NCBI RefSeq assembly: GCF_009602705.1
Contig: NZ_VSWH01000001.1
Coordinates: 3,100,001-3,164,000, forward strand
From: Chryseobacterium vaccae
GTDB taxonomy: Bacteria > Bacteroidota > Bacteroidia > Flavobacteriales > Weeksellaceae
Length of the DNA: 64,000 bases
Reading direction: 5' to 3'
Numbering within the stretch: position 1 is the first letter of the stretch; every line of letters begins with the position of its first letter. Positions 2,895-12,693 of the stretch are shown here, piece by piece. The translations under genes and the position numbers were made by a program. Below the pieces are notes generated by a model. The model was not told where the DNA came from and did no database searches. It saw nothing but the letters and a program-made list of their open reading frames with translations.

Positions 2895-3489
2895 TATAGC
2901 ATTAATCGGGTTCTCTATGTTGGCTACTGCACAGATCTCACTGGCAGGTAAAGCCAACTTAATATTCCCGACAGGTTCTCCTTCATGGAAAAATATCAAG
3001 GGAACGGTAAATGATGCGATTGACGGAACAGGAAAAAACAATGCAGGTTTCAATGTAGGACTTTCATTAAAAGTAGGACTTCCAACTTCACTTTTTGTAA
3101 TGCCGGAACTATATTATACTCACTTCAAAAATGAATTTACTACCGAGAATACTACTTTCGATGTAAAAAGCAACCGTATTGATATGCCGGTTCTTGTAGG
3201 GTATAATGTATTAGGAAATATGCTGGGGGTTTTCGTAGGGCCAGTGGCAAGCTATAATTTGAGTACGGATAATACATACAATGATTTTAAAGAAAACGCC
3301 AAAAATAATTTTACAGTAGGTTACCAGTTCGGAGCCCAGCTGGAAATTAAAAAACTGATTGTGAATGCTAGATATGAAGGGGCTTTCAGTAAGGATGAGA
3401 GAAACTTCATCAATAAAGTTTCAGGATCAGAAATCAGATATGATAACAGGCCTAACCTATTTATGGTAGGTTTAGGATATAAGTTTTAA
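2878..3489 (+). CDS. Outer-membrane beta-barrel protein (porin-like)
   Basis: A 203-residue secreted protein. Residues 1-18 form a signal peptide ending ATAQ. The rest is rich in alternating polar and hydrophobic residues, with regularly spaced aromatic strands, and ends in F (GLGYKF), typical of a small eight-stranded barrel of the PorT/OmpX-like type. The start ATG lies inside the end of the MlaF-like gene (17-base overlap), so it is cotranscribed with the lipid transporter and may be an outer-membrane element of the same system. That link is inference from position only. Confidence 0.75.
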   Translation: MKKVLSIALIGFSMLATAQISLAGKANLIFPTGSPSWKNIKGTVNDAIDGTGKNNAGFNVGLSLKVGLPTSLFVMPELYYTHFKNEFTTENTTFDVKSNRIDMPVLVGYNVLGNMLGVFVGPVASYNLSTDNTYNDFKENAKNNFTVGYQFGAQLEIKKLIVNARYEGAFSKDERNFINKVSGSEIRYDNRPNLFMVGLGYKF

Positions 3490-3510
3490 ATCAATCGAAA
3501 TAACAACTAT

Positions 3511-3546
3511 AAAAAAGCCCTCTAAATCTTAGATTTGAGGGCTTTT
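3511..3546. terminator. Bidirectional terminator between convergent genes
   Basis: Hairpin of AAAAGCCCTC paired with GAGGGCTTTT, flanked by A and T runs usable on both strands. It ends the MlaE/MlaF/barrel operon. It also covers the last codons and stop of the convergent gene that ends at 3529. Confidence 0.8.
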
Positions 3547-3840
3547 ATTCTGTTCCTGAAGTTCTGCTTCGCGTTTGGCAATCTCAGCCGCCTGTTTTTC
3601 CAATTCTTCTTTATCCTTCTGCAGCTGTTTAAATTCCTTTTTTTTCTGCTCAGCTTTAAGAGCACTTCCTTTACTCATATAACCTACCATTCCTCCAATG
3701 ATCAGCCCGATTCCTACACCAGCCATCATTCCCATCATATGAGAGAGAGTAATTTTTTCAACGGTAAAATCCGTTGTAAGGTAAAAAAGCAGTGCTGAAA
3801 CCGCAAGCAGTATAAGCCCGGTAATTGATAAGCTCTTCAT
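3529..3840 (-). CDS. Small membrane protein with coiled-coil tail, unknown function
   Basis: A 103-residue protein I do not recognise. Residues 1-24 and about 33-54 are hydrophobic, the second Gly/Met-rich (MMGMMAGVGIGLIIGGMVGY). The final ~45 residues are strongly charged and heptad-like (EQKKKEFKQL, KEELEKQAAEIAKREAELQEQ), predicting a cytoplasmic coiled coil behind two membrane helices. It is monocistronic, and its last codons sit inside the terminator hairpin. No catalytic motif is visible. Confidence 0.7.
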   Translation of the reverse strand: MKSLSITGLILLAVSALLFYLTTDFTVEKITLSHMMGMMAGVGIGLIIGGMVGYMSKGSALKAEQKKKEFKQLQKDKEELEKQAAEIAKREAELQEQNKSPQI

Positions 3841-3865
3841 AATATCGTGTTTAGTGGTTGTAGTA

Positions 3866-3907
3866 AAAAAGCCTTACTAATTTACGAAAAAATAAAATAA
3901 GGCTTTA
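3866..3907 (-). terminator. Terminator after the M48 protease gene
   Basis: AAAGCCTTA pairs with TAAGGCTTT around a 21-base loop. On the minus strand the hairpin is followed by a run of six T, placed 20 bases after the protease stop codon. Confidence 0.65.
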
Positions 3908-3927
3908 TACAAGATTAAAAATTCAAA

Positions 3928-4734
3928 TTATATCTTTCCTCCGGCAGCTTTATAATATTCTAAAGCTTTCGGAAGGTTTTTATTGATATCGGATATTCTG
4001 GTTTCCGGATTCGGGTGGGTAGAAAGGAATTCCGGTTGTCTCGCTCCTGAAGAGGCTGCTTCCATTCTGTTCCAGAATGGTACTGCTTCTCTTGGGTCAT
4101 ATCCTGCCATAGACATCAGGTATAATCCCATCTGGTCTGCCTCAGATTCCTGGCTTCTTCCATATTTCAATAAGGCAACCTGTGATCCGATAGGATACGC
4201 CTTTTCAAAAATACTTGCCCACTGTGCATTGGAAATTGTACTTCCTAAAATAGCTCCTCCATACTGGGCCATCATCGCCTGAGAAATTCTTTCATTTCCG
4301 TGACCTGCCAACGCATGGGAAACCTCGTGTCCCATTACTACTGCAAGACCATTATCATTTTTTGTCACCGGCAGAATTCCTGTATATACGGCAACTTTCC
4401 CACCGGGCATACACCATGCATTCAGTTCATTACTCTGTAACAGATTGAATTCCCAGTTGTAATTCGCCAGATCTGCTGACCTTCCGATGTTCTGATAATA
4501 TTTTTCCGCAGCACTTTTTATCCTGCTTCCAACACTCACTACTCTTTTAGCATCTGCGGTACCGGTGATGATCTTAGATTTAGACAATGTCGTTTTATAT
4601 TCCTGTGCAGACATTGTTAATATTTCTGAATTATTGGCGATCTGTAACGAAGACCTTCCCGTAATCGGGTTGGTTGTACAAGCTGAAACTGTCAGAGCAA
4701 TAGCTCCTATTCCTAATAGTTGTGTTATTTTCAT
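3928..4734 (-). CDS. M48-family metalloprotease lipoprotein
   Basis: Zinc metallopeptidase of the M48 (LoiP/BepA/Oma1-like) group, likely an envelope quality-control protease. I start at the ATG giving MKITQLLGIG, because it yields a lipoprotein signal with lipobox Cys at residue 19; 32 extra residues upstream are open but not signal-like. The zinc motif HEVSH is at residues 136-140, and the third ligand Glu lies in QESEAD near residue 196. The 268-residue length is normal. It is divergent from the DUF4251 gene. The specific substrate is unknown. Confidence 0.9.
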   Translation of the reverse strand: MKITQLLGIGAIALTVSACTTNPITGRSSLQIANNSEILTMSAQEYKTTLSKSKIITGTADAKRVVSVGSRIKSAAEKYYQNIGRSADLANYNWEFNLLQSNELNAWCMPGGKVAVYTGILPVTKNDNGLAVVMGHEVSHALAGHGNERISQAMMAQYGGAILGSTISNAQWASIFEKAYPIGSQVALLKYGRSQESEADQMGLYLMSMAGYDPREAVPFWNRMEAASSGARQPEFLSTHPNPETRISDINKNLPKALEYYKAAGGKI

Positions 4735-8230: not shown

Positions 8231-8731
8231 TTATTTTTTCTTTTTTTTACTTTTTGGCATTTTACTTTTGATAAATTTTTCTTTCTCCTTCAGCTTATCT
8301 GTCATATTTTGGGAAAGACTGGTTTTCCTTGCTTCTTTAAGAGATTGTAGCGCTTTTTTAAAGTCTCCTTTTTTCTCAAACAAAAGCGATTGGGAACTGA
8401 AAAGGTCTGTCTTATCAATTCCTTTAAGTTTTAAAGCAAATTCTATTAATTTTTCTGCCTGATCATAGTCTTCATTATTCAAGAGACAGCTGATATAATA
8501 TTTGGGGATGTTGATATTGCCGATATTATTCTGTAAAGCTTCTTCAAAATAAGCTTTTGCCGTTTCATAATCTTTCAACACTTCAGAATATATTCTTCCC
8601 ATCAGACAAAGACTGTCGGCATCCTGCGGATCATAAGCCAGGGCATAGTTTAATGCTTCCAGACAGTCTGCGAGGTAGTAAGGATAGTTGTCTACCGCTT
8701 CAAAGTAGTATTTATTTTTAGTTAAGGTCAT
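8231..8731 (-). CDS. TPR-repeat protein with poly-Lys tail
   Basis: A 166-residue cytoplasmic helical-repeat protein. I see about three tetratricopeptide-like units (DADSLCLMGRIYSEVLKDYETAKAYFEEAL; YYISCLLNNEDYDQAEKLIEFAL; SLLFEKKGDFKKALQSLKEA). The C-terminus ends in SKKKKK. Its start lies 14 bases inside the end of prfH, indicating translational coupling. It probably acts as a protein-binding partner; the basic tail could touch RNA or ribosomes. Both are inference. No signal peptide. Confidence 0.72.
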   Translation of the reverse strand: MTLTKNKYYFEAVDNYPYYLADCLEALNYALAYDPQDADSLCLMGRIYSEVLKDYETAKAYFEEALQNNIGNINIPKYYISCLLNNEDYDQAEKLIEFALKLKGIDKTDLFSSQSLLFEKKGDFKKALQSLKEARKTSLSQNMTDKLKEKEKFIKSKMPKSKKKKK

Positions 8732-9416
8732 TGTTGTAGTTTTTAAGTTCTTTTTTCAGAACATTTCTTTGTTTTTTGAAAGACTTGTCCTCTTTGTTCT
8801 TTTTAAAATCAGTTCCGGTAAAGGTTCGTACCGGATTTCCTCTCTGTACCTGCAGATGGTTATTCCAGGTATCCTGCATCCGTTTTTCCAGCTGGCGGAT
8901 GTAAAGTCCTGCGACTCTCTCTTTCAGTCTTGACACAGCCAGCTTTTTATTCTCCAGCTGCGAGCGTGAGTCCTGTGCGAATACACTTTCTCCGGTAGGT
9001 GTATGAACGGCGCGGACCGCTGTGTTTACCTTGTTCACATTCTGGCCGCCGCTTCCCTGGCTTCTCGTGGTCTGGAACTGTATATCTTTTTCATTGAAAT
9101 TTATTTTTTCCAGTCCTTCCAGCTCAAAGATTCCGATAAACCAGTTGCTTCGTTTATGAAGTTTTCTGAACGTACTTTTACCGGTCCAGCATATACTTCC
9201 CAGCCAGCTTTTCAAGAATCCGGTAATGTCTTTTCCCTTTAAAAGGATGGTTACCGATTTCAGGGTAAGGTTTTCATCCCCACTCTCGCGGTGGATGATT
9301 TCATAATCTATTTTGTTGTCTTTAACCTCCTCAAGGAAGACCTTCAGAATTTTCGCAGTTACCCACTGGCATTCCAAAGGCCCTCTTCCTGAGGTGATCT
9401 GAATTAATTTTTCCAT
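8718..9416 (-). CDS. prfH: PrfH, release-factor homologue for damaged ribosomes
   Basis: Class I release factor-like protein of the PrfH type (232 aa), much shorter than RF1/RF2 because it lacks the N-terminal domain. GGQ, the peptidyl-tRNA hydrolysis motif, is at residues 123-125 in [10 protein letters not shown]. In the codon-recognition region it reads KSTF (80-83) where RF2 has KSPF. The start MEKLIQITSGRGP was chosen because 30 upstream open codons overlap the previous gene. PrfH is typically encoded beside rtcB, and E. coli PrfH-RtcB2 has been reported to release peptides from ribosomes cleaved at the decoding centre, after which RtcB reseals the RNA. Here a nucleotidyltransferase-like gene sits between the two. 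Confidence 0.92.
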   Translation of the reverse strand: MEKLIQITSGRGPLECQWVTAKILKVFLEEVKDNKIDYEIIHRESGDENLTLKSVTILLKGKDITGFLKSWLGSICWTGKSTFRKLHKRSNWFIGIFELEGLEKINFNEKDIQFQTTRSQGSGGQNVNKVNTAVRAVHTPTGESVFAQDSRSQLENKKLAVSRLKERVAGLYIRQLEKRMQDTWNNHLQVQRGNPVRTFTGTDFKKNKEDKSFKKQRNVLKKELKNYNNDLN

Positions 9417-9418
9417 TA

Positions 9419-9964
9419 TTACTTTGGTATTTTGCTTAATAAGGGATGACCAACCGGATCCGTTCCCTTTTGTAATAGTTCTTTTGCAGCCATTACTGCC
9501 CAGCATTTATCACTTGAATGAATGTTTCTGTAGAATGAAAGTAAAACATCAGGCTTCACAACCGCAAATCCATTGGTTTCTATGGTTTCAAGATCATTTC
9601 TTTCAAAAAAATCGATGGTGATCCTGTGAAATTGATCACTTTCCAATTCTACTGTTTTTTCATACCTCCGGAAATTTTCTTTACTCTGCAAATGATCGTA
9701 GCGGGTCCAGACTTTCTGAAAGCCGTTCTGCTGAAGGATCATTACTACTTCTGCTACATTTTCCTTTATTACAAAAACATCAATGTCTTTGTGGTCATGT
9801 GCATGTTTATATTCCGGATGTCCTGTTTCTGACATGAAATGCCATGCCCAGCCTCCTGATATAATAACTTTATTTTTTAATTTTTCTAAAATTTCAAGCC
9901 CCAGACGGATTCTGAATTCCGGCCAGACCTCTCCATACCTTTTTATGTTATGTGGTGCTCCCAT
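9419..9964 (-). CDS. Nucleotidyltransferase-fold protein in the rtcB-prfH cassette
   Basis: A 181-residue soluble protein with a pol-beta-type nucleotidyltransferase signature: SGG at residues 36-38, DID at 60-62 (metal pair) and a third Asp at 118 in RITIDFFE. The layout recalls small ANT/LinB-like transferases, but the loop between GG and DID is long and rich in His (EYKHAHDHKDID). A C-terminal helix follows (CWAVMAAKELL). The stop codon is 2 bases before the prfH start, so the two are tightly coupled. It could adenylylate or extend RNA ends, or modify a protein or small molecule. The substrate is unknown; catalytic competence is inferred from the retained acidic triad. Confidence 0.75.
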   Translation of the reverse strand: MGAPHNIKRYGEVWPEFRIRLGLEILEKLKNKVIISGGWAWHFMSETGHPEYKHAHDHKDIDVFVIKENVAEVVMILQQNGFQKVWTRYDHLQSKENFRRYEKTVELESDQFHRITIDFFERNDLETIETNGFAVVKPDVLLSFYRNIHSSDKCWAVMAAKELLQKGTDPVGHPLLSKIPK

Positions 9965-10035
9965 TTTTTTGTTTTTTGAGATTAAAATTGAAGGTTATAC
10001 AGTTCTGTTGATCTGTTATTTTCAGAACTTATATA

Positions 10036-10066
10036 AACCTTATAGGTTTTTGAAACCTATAAGGTT
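10036..10066. repeat. Perfect 14-bp inverted repeat between rtcB and the nucleotidyltransferase gene
   Basis: AACCTTATAGGTTT and its exact complement, separated by TTG, lie in the 165-base gap inside the rtcB-prfH cassette. No T run follows on either strand, so it does not look like a standard terminator. It resembles palindromic intergenic elements of Flavobacteria, or it may act as an RNA hairpin in the polycistronic transcript. Confidence 0.8.
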
Positions 10067-10129
10067 GTGGCTGCAAACTATCTTTCTGCAAAATTTTCTC
10101 AACTGATTACTGTAAACAATTAATCCAAT

Positions 10130-11521
10130 TTATTTATCCATTCTCACGATTCTCGGCTGGAATGTTCCCAGGATGTCTACCAGATCACTCTGTGCATTCA
10201 TCACGTCATGAATATCTTTGTAGGCCATTGGAGCTTCTTCCGTATTTCCGCCCATCAGAGTGACTTTCTTTAATTTCAGTTCTTTTTTGATGTCATTCTG
10301 CGTGAATAAACTTCTGCATTCTGCTCTTGAATGGGCTCTTCCAGCTCCATGTGAAGCTGAATTCAATGCCTCCGGGTTTCCTTTACCACGAACGATGAAT
10401 CCCTTAGCTGTCATAGATCCGGGAATCATTCCCAGCTCATTTTCACTGGCCGGAGTGGCTCCTTTTCTATGAACAATGACTTCTTTTCCGTTGTGAATCT
10501 CTTTCCATGCAAAATTGTGATGGTTTTCGATGCGGGCTTTTACTCTTCCTCCCACTGCTTTTACCAGTCTTCTGTGAATATCATCATGGCAGGCAGAGGC
10601 ATAGTCTCCGGCCAGATTCATTGCTGTCCAGTATTCCAGTCCCAGATGGGTGTTCAGGTCAAGCCAGGCAAACTGCTGGGCTTCTTTCGGAAGCGGGCAC
10701 TGCTCTACGGCTACTCTTGAATAGTATTGAGCAATTTCTGCTCCCAGTCCTCTTGATCCGCTGTGCGAAAGGATTCCCAGATATTTACCTTTGGGAAGGC
10801 CAATCTGTTCGTCTTCTTCTGTGATTTCCACTTCACCGAATTCTACGAAGTGATTTCCTCCGCCGGAAGATCCCATCTGTTTGATGGCTTTTCCTTTTAA
10901 TCTTCTCAGAATAGGGATCAGATCAAAAGTATCCCTCTCGAAAATTTCATGTTCTGCATGAGATTTGTGGGTCTCATACATACCAAATTTGGTATGTTCG
11001 GCCAGCGCTTTTTCATATTTTTCTCTGGCACCGTCAAGATATGAAACCGGGGTATCCAGAATACTCAGACACATTCTGCATCCTATATCCATACCTACTC
11101 CATAGGGGATCACCGCGTTTTCCACAGCCAATACACCTCCTATCGGAAGACCGTAACCGCTATGCGCATCAGGCATCAGCGCTCCCTGTACCGATACCGG
11201 CAGCTTTAAAGCCGTATACAGCTGATTTTTGGCTTCTTCAGAAATATTATTTCCAAAGATCTGAAAAGAGGCACGCTGAGTATTCAACATTCTTTTTTCA
11301 GTTTTCTTTGAAGACAGCAGGGATTCCGCGATCTGTCCGAAGGTTAAGTCTTTTTCATAATTCTCCGGATTGAGCAGAATTTCCTTTAAAAGAGATTTCA
11401 CATAATGAATATTTTTAGTAGCAAAATTTCTTTTCATTACCTCCAAAGCCACGTTGATACTTTGATTGTTCGGATAGCCCAGTTTTAATATATCTTTTCC
11501 TTTTAGTTTTAAATTTCCCAT
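10130..11521 (-). CDS. rtcB: RtcB RNA ligase
   Basis: GTP- and Mn-dependent ligase joining 2',3'-cyclic phosphate or 3'-phosphate RNA ends to 5'-OH ends. It is 463 residues long. Metal-site residues are visible: Asp 145 and Cys 148 (GMDIGCRM), His 224 (GGGNHFVEFGE), His 253 (SHSGSRGLG) and the ENHHNFAW motif at 332-339. The guanylylated His is 391 in SHGAGRAHSR. GMDIGCRM replaces the classical GFDINCGVR. The pairing with prfH suggests the ribosome-repair class of RtcB. It is the second gene of the cassette, 26 bases after the basic unknown gene. Confidence 0.95.
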   Translation of the reverse strand: MGNLKLKGKDILKLGYPNNQSINVALEVMKRNFATKNIHYVKSLLKEILLNPENYEKDLTFGQIAESLLSSKKTEKRMLNTQRASFQIFGNNISEEAKNQLYTALKLPVSVQGALMPDAHSGYGLPIGGVLAVENAVIPYGVGMDIGCRMCLSILDTPVSYLDGAREKYEKALAEHTKFGMYETHKSHAEHEIFERDTFDLIPILRRLKGKAIKQMGSSGGGNHFVEFGEVEITEEDEQIGLPKGKYLGILSHSGSRGLGAEIAQYYSRVAVEQCPLPKEAQQFAWLDLNTHLGLEYWTAMNLAGDYASACHDDIHRRLVKAVGGRVKARIENHHNFAWKEIHNGKEVIVHRKGATPASENELGMIPGSMTAKGFIVRGKGNPEALNSASHGAGRAHSRAECRSLFTQNDIKKELKLKKVTLMGGNTEEAPMAYKDIHDVMNAQSDLVDILGTFQPRIVRMDK

Positions 11522-11547
11522 TGTTTTTGTTTTAAATAATAGCGGAC

Positions 11548-12282
11548 TTAAATGTCCAGAAAGCTATCTGCAATTTCTGTTGCAGACATTGTGCAGGCAA
11601 CATATTTCCTGCGTTTGATAAGATCTGTTTTATACTTCATTTCCCAGCTGTAGGATCTGCCATAAATGGTTTTATGAATGATTCCTTTCACTGTATGTTG
11701 CCCTAAATACGACTCCAGTTCTGCACATTCTTTTTCAAGTTGTGCATCTATTGGCTTGTAGTGGGTAATCATATGAGGTCTTACTCTCAGGGTAAACCTC
11801 CAGGGTTCAATGAATTCGTAGTAAATCTGGTTTGATTTCCGGAAAGGACAGTATTCTTCTTTTTTCAGGAAATACTGCTTTTCTCTTGGGGTAAGCCCAA
11901 ATTTCGGACTGATCCAGGAATATGAAGATATACGGTTGAGTTTCTGCTCCCGTTCCACATATATTCTCCGCCCTGATTTTCTTTTCTTTTTCAAAAACTG
12001 GCGGCTTCCGGAATACATATAGGTATTTATTTTCTTCAGAATCCCTTCGAAGAATGCTCCGTCTTTGCTTCTCATCACATCATCCCTTACCACAAAGAAT
12101 CTTACAAATCCTAATTGGTAGGGTTCATCCAGAGGAATCATCGGCATATTTCTTCTTATCTCCCAGAGTTCATCACTACGTTTATATTTTTTTCTTATCT
12201 GTTTTTCTACATCTTTTTTAATTGTTCTTTTTCTGTTTCTTACGCTTCTTAGGCGGTGAAACAGAAGGTTATCATTTTCCAT
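11548..12282 (-). CDS. Basic protein of unknown function, first gene of the rtcB-prfH cassette
   Basis: A 244-residue protein I cannot place. It is markedly basic: the N-terminus carries RLRSVRNRKRTIKKDVEKQ followed by IRKKYKRS, and the middle KKKRKSGRRIYVERE. There are several aromatic patches (YYEFIEPWRF, YGRSYSWEMKYK). No signal peptide, membrane helix or Cys cluster is seen. The charge and position suggest an RNA- or ribosome-binding component, but this is inference. It is promoter-proximal in the cassette, 26 bases upstream of rtcB. Confidence 0.72.
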   Translation of the reverse strand: MENDNLLFHRLRSVRNRKRTIKKDVEKQIRKKYKRSDELWEIRRNMPMIPLDEPYQLGFVRFFVVRDDVMRSKDGAFFEGILKKINTYMYSGSRQFLKKKRKSGRRIYVEREQKLNRISSYSWISPKFGLTPREKQYFLKKEEYCPFRKSNQIYYEFIEPWRFTLRVRPHMITHYKPIDAQLEKECAELESYLGQHTVKGIIHKTIYGRSYSWEMKYKTDLIKRRKYVACTMSATEIADSFLDI

Positions 12283-12346: not shown

Positions 12347-12366
12347 TCAACTAAAATTTCAGTTGA
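12347..12366. promoter_or_regulatory. Inverted repeat upstream of the rtcB-prfH cassette
   Basis: TCAACT and AGTTGA arms separated by 8 bases, 65 bases upstream of the first gene of the cassette. It could be an operator for induction of the cassette, or the base of an RNA hairpin. It is short enough to occur by chance. Confidence 0.3.
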
Positions 12367-12483
12367 CGGGTTTGACAATGACGGACTAATGATTCTGAAC
12401 ATGAAAAGTTCAGGCATTTTATCCTGTAATGACACTAAAAAAGATTCCGGGAAAACTTCTGAGTTTGAAATATTGCGCAATAA

Positions 12484-12514
12484 AAAACCCGAAATCTTGG
12501 CGACTTCGGGTTTT
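12484..12514 (-). terminator. Terminator of the small transcript
   Basis: AAAACCCGAA / TTCGGGTTTT hairpin with an 11-base loop. On the minus strand it is followed by six T in total. It can also stop plus-strand readthrough. Confidence 0.75.
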
Positions 12515-12536
12515 GATATTTCGTTATACTATTATT

Positions 12537-12614
12537 CTAAGAGTGTACCAAACCACGAAGCCTTTCCGCCATAAGCGGTAATCCAGCTGTAGAATTCTGA
12601 TTCGTTTTGAACAT
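12537..12614 (-). CDS. Small ORF of 25 aa inside the structured transcript
   Basis: ATG at 12612-12614 to TAG at 12537-12539, encoding MFKTNQNSTAGLPL then MAERLRGLVHS. It begins right after the 5' arm of the large stem, about 35 bases from the predicted transcript start. A second frame through the same stretch (SWITAYGGKASWFGTLLE) is also open but has no start codon. Coding status is uncertain. Confidence 0.3.
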   Translation of the reverse strand: MFKTNQNSTAGLPLMAERLRGLVHS

Positions 12615-12655
12615 TGCTTCGTTGTTTTTAATGGGTTAAACTTGATTTTCAGGTG

Positions 12656-12684
12656 CAAATATATAAATTTTTCTGATCTTTCAA
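12656..12684 (-). promoter_or_regulatory. Promoter of the small transcript (TTG-N18-TATATTTG)
   Basis: Both elements of the Bacteroidetes primary promoter are present on the minus strand: TTG (12682-12684) and TATATTTG (12656-12663), 18 bases apart. This is the most complete consensus promoter I found in the window. Predicted transcript start is near 12650. Confidence 0.65.
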
Positions 12685-12693
12685 ATATTTTTT

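Follow-up and report, generated by a model that had tools for sequence, protein, structure and literature searches.

What switches on a probable cassette for RNA repair and ribosome rescue, and which genes belong to it, are the questions raised by a minus-strand gene run in Chryseobacterium vaccae. The DNA analyzed here, called the window, is the 64,000-nt stretch at positions 3,100,001-3,164,000 of the forward strand of contig NZ_VSWH01000001.1 (assembly GCF_009602705.1). The run comprises, from its 5' end, genes for a basic protein (BAS), an RtcB-family RNA ligase, a nucleotidyltransferase (NT), the release factor PrfH (RFH) and a tetratricopeptide repeat (TPR) protein. Based on sequence comparison, we consider it probable that these genes are an operon responding to ribosome damage through a sensor of its own, in which stalling of a ribosome early on a short leader open reading frame (ORF) switches the repair cassette on by ribosome-mediated attenuation. 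The original prediction, made from the DNA letters, had the unit start at 12282, the first base of the BAS gene. The leader element at 12480-12690 belongs to the unit as well.

The leader element and its distribution

When the species collection was scanned with an NT profile, 149 relatives were found; the 80 best of them, all close relatives of NT, were kept and examined. A leader with 76-96% DNA identity is present at 75 of these 80 loci, and no leader DNA match was found at the five Flavobacteriaceae loci among them (Tenacibaculum or other; NT identity 65-67%). Of the 148 family genomes, 47 have a strong leader match (E <=1.6e-14), and all 47 matches lie 5' of rtcB, or of BAS-rtcB, on the same strand and at a distance of at most 0.44 kb, except for 0.68 kb in G108. 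Forty-six of them are in genomes with RtcB-PrfH (46/60), the remaining one being G108, where the leader and rtcB are found without prfH (G108:C12:90795-93051). Genomes of the family lacking the cassette gave only short leader matches of about 40 bits, except for a partial match of 66 bits in G064 (G064:C2:304131-304233), likewise with no cassette.

A covariance model (R1) was built from 42 leader copies of the family (Weeksellaceae) and applied to 23 cassette loci outside its seed. Twenty of these reach upstream, and all 20 gave a match on the cassette strand; among them, L151 has no ORF motif and stands 1.7 kb away from rtcB, and L154 and L188 belong to a single contig. When 391 genomes of the order were searched, R1 matched at E <=1e-3 in 92, with all matches above 100 bits found in the own family. 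Of the matches scoring 44.6-64 bits, 23 of 24 directly precede (BAS-)rtcB. The exception is a 51-bit match in a Chryseobacterium-genus genome (L290, G159:C23:91711-91837), which has no cassette gene nearby. There were 31 weaker matches, 14 of which were examined: L295 precedes rtcB-prfH, L301 is 1.7 kb away from an rtcB, and the other 12 are not near any cassette.

In the window, the whole leader scores 174.5 bits and the next best match 23.3, and its parts all read on the minus strand. A putative promoter of Bacteroidetes type (12656-12685) consists of TTTG (12685-12682), 18 nt and TATATTTG (12663-12656), an arrangement which we take to be the Bacteroidetes promoter consensus. The strict pattern was found at 28 of the 80 loci, in a 450-nt stretch that does not reach the leader in every locus, and the final TG of the box and the CA following it are invariant or near-invariant in A5. 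Segment 1 (ACGAAGC, 12616-12622) stands immediately 5' of the start codon of the leader ORF (12537-12614), which has 25 codons, reads MFKTNQNSTAGLPLMAERLRGLVHS and ends in TAG. The ORF contains a hairpin (12564-12580) and, in its codons 18-22, segment 2 (GGCTTCGTGGTTT, 12550-12562), which may pair with either segment 1 or segment 3. The predicted terminator (12482-12514) is formed by segment 3 (12513-12502), segment 4 (12496-12484) and a run of U. The pattern scanner did not list this terminator, probably due to A:T pairs that extend the stem into the U run.

Likely translation of the leader and competing pairings

Leader copies were collected from 133 loci, giving 103 distinct copies with 82 distinct ORFs and 66 peptides. 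The ORF begins with MF, has exactly 25 codons and ends at the stop in 103/103 distinct copies, and its length is constant even though the A-run preceding the start codon varies in length. Among similar copies, single-base codon differences are synonymous in 2154 of 4348 cases in frame (50%) versus 796/4495 (18%) and 954/4759 (20%) in the other two frames; these counts are pairwise among related copies, so they are not independent events, which lessens their weight for the attenuation reading. The excess sits in codons 12-25 (12537-12581; 65% versus 20% and 11%), where 4481 synonymous and 2382 nonsynonymous differences indicate conservation at the amino-acid level. Because of the constant 25 codons and the in-frame synonymous excess, the leader ORF is most likely translated, with its second half under selection.

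In most of the more distant leaders the ORF has 26-29 codons, with CGAAG ahead of its start codon and CUUCG close to its end, e.g., MFVLTSTSQSFTPNGFGAALLRGLFQS. Exceptions are L212 with 25 codons, L286 and L288 with a GTG start, and L151 with no ORF. In three distant copies of g30/g32 (L180, L181 and L186), GCUUCGG shifts by one nucleotide relative to the codons, so that the peptide changes and the motif stays. Since the motif persists through this change of reading register and peptide, the RNA motif itself seems to be selected.

Helix 1:2, which involves the part of segment 2 in codons 18-20, is paired in 92.6% of alignment cells, the hairpin within the ORF in 95.8% and the 3:4 terminator in 96.9%, versus 36-58% in slid controls for the whole leader structure. 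Both sides have changed in 4 of 6 pairs of the ORF hairpin. Both the hairpin and the terminator are present in the RNAalifold consensus, and the terminator is also part of the minimum free energy fold of the leader (z -3.0). The competing 2:3 pairing comprises 12 pairs and is likewise formed in 96.9% of cells, against 20-65% for slid controls, and segment 2 is the best duplex-energy partner of the 5' arm of the terminator in 99 of 103 leaders, with about 129 windows scanned.

The outcome of this competition was examined by folding with a ribosome footprint imposed at a given codon. In a partial RNA truncated directly behind segment 3, this segment is predicted to pair with the ORF in 103/103 leaders with the ribosome at codons 1-6, in 99-102 at codons 8-12 and in 93 at codon 14, and in just 2-6 of them at codons 16-24. 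The 34 distant leaders give a similar series, i.e., 32 at codons 1-6, 23-32 at codons 8-14, 27 at codon 16 and 2-5 at codons 18-24. Among complete leaders at equilibrium, free RNA terminates (P 0.97), and with a ribosome at the end of the ORF only the terminator remains. If the RNA is made to end at the U run and a ribosome sits at the start codon, 2:3 wins in 62-64 of 103. In these models, ribosomes that reach the end of the ORF would enforce termination, and early stalls, perhaps also absent translation, would permit readthrough.

The order of events that we propose is as follows. RNA polymerase would start at the leader promoter, and a healthy ribosome would translate the 25-codon ORF to its end, covering segment 2, so that the 3:4 terminator forms and the cassette remains off. 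A ribosome stalling after initiation, within roughly the first 14 codons, its decoding center cut or blocked by a drug, would leave segment 2 free while hindering helix 1:2; free segment 2 would then pair with segment 3, no terminator would form and the cassette would be transcribed. Of its products, PrfH would hydrolyze the stuck peptidyl-tRNA, upon which the ribosome comes apart, and RtcB would seal the 2',3'-cyclic-phosphate/5'-OH break in 16S rRNA. NT most likely extends the damaged RNA 3' ends with nucleotides, whereas BAS, TPR and the zinc-ribbon protein of related cassettes (absent here) would probably bring the enzymes to the 30S subunit. A single amino acid as the signal is disfavored because the early leader codons vary. 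The identities of the genes, their association as a module, the conservation of the leader and its ORF and the competing pairings can be read from the sequences compared here; the inducing signal and the roles of NT, BAS and TPR are our interpretation.

Several results weigh against this reading. The first ten codons show no clear synonymous excess (32% versus 21% and 31%), and the conservation of the last 14 residues exceeds what stalling explains. Helix 1:2 is not part of RNAalifold's own consensus of the 103 copies, and covariation in 2:3 is nearly nil (1 of 12 pairs). The absence of 1:2 from that consensus and the confinement of the coding signal to the second half of the ORF slightly reduce our confidence in attenuation. 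Even without a ribosome, pairing between the ORF and segment 3 of the partial RNA is predicted in 98/103 leaders, and in 31 of the 34 distant ones; readthrough might therefore occur on an untranslated leader as well. In complete leaders with a ribosome placed at the start codon, 28 of 103 favor 2:3 (190-nt RNA) and most the terminator, and among the 34 distant leaders only 5 favor 2:3. Equilibrium folding thus supports the modeled switch in part only, with an effect whose strength depends on the point at which the RNA is cut, and because most leaders favor the terminator over 2:3 at equilibrium, the switch would have to rest on folding during transcription. The conservation of the element is also incomplete: L178 and L179 have ORFs of 19 codons without CUUCG, and L295 lacks both motifs. 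DNA similarity misses the leader in 14 of 60 cassettes; R1 found it in about eight of those loci tried, G093 not among them.

Composition of the repair cassette

All five genes of the run, with NT between rtcB and prfH as predicted, proved to be real by their ORFs and by matches to PF01139 and TIGR03072. BAS (11548-12282, 244 aa) is a basic protein whose family is associated with rtcB. The RtcB-family ligase (10130-11521) matches PF01139 with 271 bits and retains DIGC, GGNHF, HSGSRG, HHN and HGAGR in alignment to PDB 1uc2, which we take to be its active-site motifs. NT (9419-9964, 181 aa) is a minimal nucleotidyltransferase of the Pol-beta fold with the acidic triad D60/D62/D118. PrfH (8718-9416) scores 207 bits against TIGR03072 (cut-off 166.65) and has the GGQ motif and a lysine-rich C-terminal tail; its start was set at 9416 by family fit, whereas the mechanical ORF starts at 9506. 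The nearest solved PrfH is PDB 9mor (E 1.5e-100), with GGQ retained in the alignment. The TPR gene (8231-8731) overlaps prfH by 14 nt. From BAS to TPR the gaps are 26, 165, 2 and -14 nt, so that the tight spacings pointed out earlier are correct for three of the junctions, but the 165-bp gap between rtcB and NT had been omitted.

The order rtcB, NT, prfH on one strand is found at 80/80 NT loci, and because NT always sits between the other two, the association goes well beyond chance and the five genes are one module. A TPR gene lies 3' of prfH in 76/80 (median overlap 14) and is thus a regular member, although it had been left out of the co-occurrence check suggested with the prediction. BAS is within 300 bp of rtcB in 49/80 loci, and a zinc-ribbon gene stands between NT and prfH in 11/80. 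In a separate sample of 59 genomes (own included), NT is present in 27, i.e., in 27/36 of the own genus and in 0/23 others, and all 27 loci have rtcB upstream and prfH downstream. Among the 148 family genomes, a true prfH occurs in 61, with rtcB within about 2.1 kb in 60 of these (the exception is G125). The 60 resulting RtcB-PrfH cassettes contain NT in 11, BAS in 14 and both in 5, all adjoining rtcB (BAS in 14/14). Since so few carry either gene, and only 5 carry both, NT and BAS are optional and mutually independent parts. The co-occurrence check found neither NT nor BAS away from rtcB in the examined samples, which bears out the earlier claim of a single functional unit around RtcB-PrfH.

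As such, the cassette belongs to a kind already described. Burroughs & Aravind (2019, PMC6514570) report around RFH-RtcB a TPR gene, a nucleotidyltransferase of the Pol-beta superfamily, a zinc-ribbon protein with a charged C-terminal helix and a charged helical orphan, so the extra genes are not the new extension of a two-protein system for which they had been taken. The TPR gene and the Pol-beta nucleotidyltransferase beside RFH-RtcB are shared with the locus analyzed here, the zinc-ribbon protein, an optional item, is not present in this window, and BAS fits the account given of the charged helical orphan (their item 4) and is likely that protein. Their account states that the nucleotidyltransferase is not specifically related to RlaP and possibly rebuilds trimmed RNAs, and proposes scaffold, end-repair and rRNA-binding roles for the accreted genes. 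Relative to its passages on these systems, which mention no leader, our additions are the counts, the link between BAS families of Weeksellaceae and Flavobacteriaceae, the NT fold and the predicted attenuator.

No family match for BAS was obtained in Pfam, NCBIfam or PADLOC. A basic protein of 231 aa is encoded in front of rtcB in Tenacibaculum, its gene running 16 nt into the start of rtcB, and A3, a profile of the protein preceding rtcB in Flavobacteriaceae, matches the BAS profile (hhalign 96%). A genome search with A3 recovers the Chryseobacterium BAS at this same place (E 1.8e-5, first 85 residues); altogether A3 has 18 matches in 17 of 395 genomes, 17 of them beside rtcB and one a second copy 5' of one of those. 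BAS is thereby probably one divergent, rtcB-tied family that spans families of bacteria. One Tenacibaculum locus (L154) has two BAS-like genes 5' of rtcB, at 1729-2403 and 3158-3853. The structure model of BAS is weak (pLDDT 54) and a comparison with it yielded no fold; a role as an rRNA-binding adaptor is possible.

Alternative readings and related systems

The fold of NT resembles those of ANT(2''), LnuA and MenT, with 14-18% identity to ANT(2'')/LnuA. From this resemblance, NT could be an antibiotic-modifying enzyme of the ANT(2'')/Lnu type, inactivating drugs beside RtcB-PrfH repair and making the cassette a general shield against ribosome-targeting agents. We regard this as unlikely. NT scores below the cut-offs of the antibiotic nucleotidyltransferase family models, just under for PF10706 (20.8 versus 21) and far under for the Lnu models (LnuC 21.1 versus 300), MenT toxins score nearly as high, and a place in an RtcB-PrfH cassette at 80/80 loci, close relatives though these are, is not expected of a drug resistance gene. 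Unlike ANT(2'')-Ia, LnuA and MenT1/MenT3, NT was found solely in this cassette among the examined loci. That NT adds nucleotides to damaged RNA 3' ends is the most likely function.

The upstream element allows a different reading as well, namely that it is an independent gene for a trans-acting small RNA or microprotein that has its own promoter and terminator and does not attenuate the cassette. Its promoter-like and terminator-like ends would fit, as would the amino-acid-level conservation of the C-terminal half of the peptide. Between the leader terminator and BAS there is also a palindrome (CAACTGAAATTTTAGTTG, 12348-12365), and palindromes of this kind occur within 260 nt after the leader at 57/75 loci (chance in the window 0.00); it is possibly an operator or a second control site, and lying past the terminator it could mark a second promoter. 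An independent gene would, however, have no need for a segment 2 complementary to the terminator arm, nor would it be bound to a position 5' of (BAS-)rtcB, where all strong matches and nearly all mid-scoring ones lie. The armZ-prfH leader of Pseudomonas aeruginosa is moreover proposed to work by attenuation (PMC12057347, PMC3516279). Overall we judge an independent gene improbable, and somewhat more so than the antibiotic-modifying NT.

A still smaller chance is given to NT being a MenT-like tRNA-end transferase, which would cap tRNA CCA ends and so pause translation during repair, since the fold alone is no proof of function; no antitoxin-like partner was recognized, with no search aimed at one. 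That the genes are co-located by descent and do not work together is very improbable, because the order is maintained across families at about 60% identity with differing neighbors and NT and BAS keep to rtcB in the samples examined, even if most family cassettes lack NT and most lack BAS.

Attenuation, which remains the preferred reading of the leader, has its closest parallel in P. aeruginosa. There, ribosome-targeting drugs induce a single operon of the RtcB-like armZ (PA5471) and prfH (PA5470), with a 13-residue leader peptide, PA5471.1, about 250 bp 5' of the operon and predicted terminators (PMC3516279, PMC12057347); attenuation is proposed, and the review states that confirmation is still needed (PMC12057347). 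An RtcB-like gene and prfH in one operon, a short leader ORF and predicted terminators are common to both, and induction by impaired ribosomes is known in P. aeruginosa, where it has been connected with the leader. The leader there has 13 residues versus 25-29 here, the phylum is another, and ArmZ acts as an anti-repressor of MexZ. In Flavobacterium psychrophilum, attenuators with leader peptides regulate amino-acid operons, and 64 structured leaders have been reported (PMC9723704); transcription attenuation by a translated leader is the shared trait, but there it precedes biosynthesis operons.

In Escherichia coli, RtcB2-PrfH protects against cleavage of 16S rRNA by colicin E3 and repairs E3-cut ribosomes (Maviza 2022, PMC9223846). 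That system shares the RtcB-family ligase and PrfH with the cassette and is described as these two genes, with no mention of NT, BAS or TPR. It gave no protection against colicins E5 and D, which cut tRNA (PMC9223846), and thus, as far as evidence from E. coli bears on a Flavobacteriales cassette, the suggested defense against anticodon nucleases is unsupported.

Our literature search, covering openly licensed PMC papers, found no report of this leader, and a leader-ORF attenuator of this cassette in Flavobacteriales is apparently undescribed; as far as we found, induction of RtcB-PrfH has been worked on only in P. aeruginosa. We tentatively suggest, with less confidence than for attenuation itself, that leader ORFs switch the RtcB-PrfH repair operons of distant phyla, the damaged ribosome itself being the inducer. 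If its decoding center is cut, a ribosome would initiate and be unable to elongate, and so would expose the antiterminator, each injured ribosome reporting its own injury. The Flavobacteriales element (CGAAG, start codon, CUUCG in the ORF, CCGAAG in the terminator arm) would then be ancient, though it differs from PA5471.1 in length and phylum, and the cassette would be a modular repair kit that includes a nucleotidyltransferase restoring RNA 3' ends. If this is true, a conserved leader in front of this gene pair in a second phylum would turn the stalled ribosome as inducer into a general and directly testable rule, and would provide a native stress-responsive switch with which to identify the physiological attacker. 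A dedicated nucleotidyltransferase and a BAS family whose substrates can now be assayed would come with it.

Other features concern individual cassettes. The 165-bp gap between rtcB and NT contains a 31-bp palindromic repeat (10036-10066), exact copies of which occur at 20 of 312 loci, three of them at the same place and some 5' of rtcB, other Chryseobacterium loci included; this suggests a mobile or REP-like element. The own genome has a second, distant RtcB with 32% identity (G000:C1:1819382-1820455), and the g40 genomes have an RtcB paralogue of about 50% located away from prfH. Four g42 genomes, as well as G066 and G189, have a zinc-ribbon gene between rtcB and prfH. Three Tenacibaculum loci (L152 5434-5889, L154 5369-5941 and L188 4992-5564) encode an extra protein between rtcB and NT that is cysteine-rich and zinc-ribbon-like, has 151-190 aa and gave only weak Pfam matches. 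At L178 (G127), a hexapeptide acetyltransferase gene (3594-4304) is found inside an RtcB-BAS-ZNR-PrfH cassette, and a candidate phosphoesterase-like protein is encoded 3' of prfH (1456-2304). Finally, rtcB appears to be in two pieces, with prfH and the leader retained, at G151:C2:341390-342779 and at L179 2428-3825 (G074).

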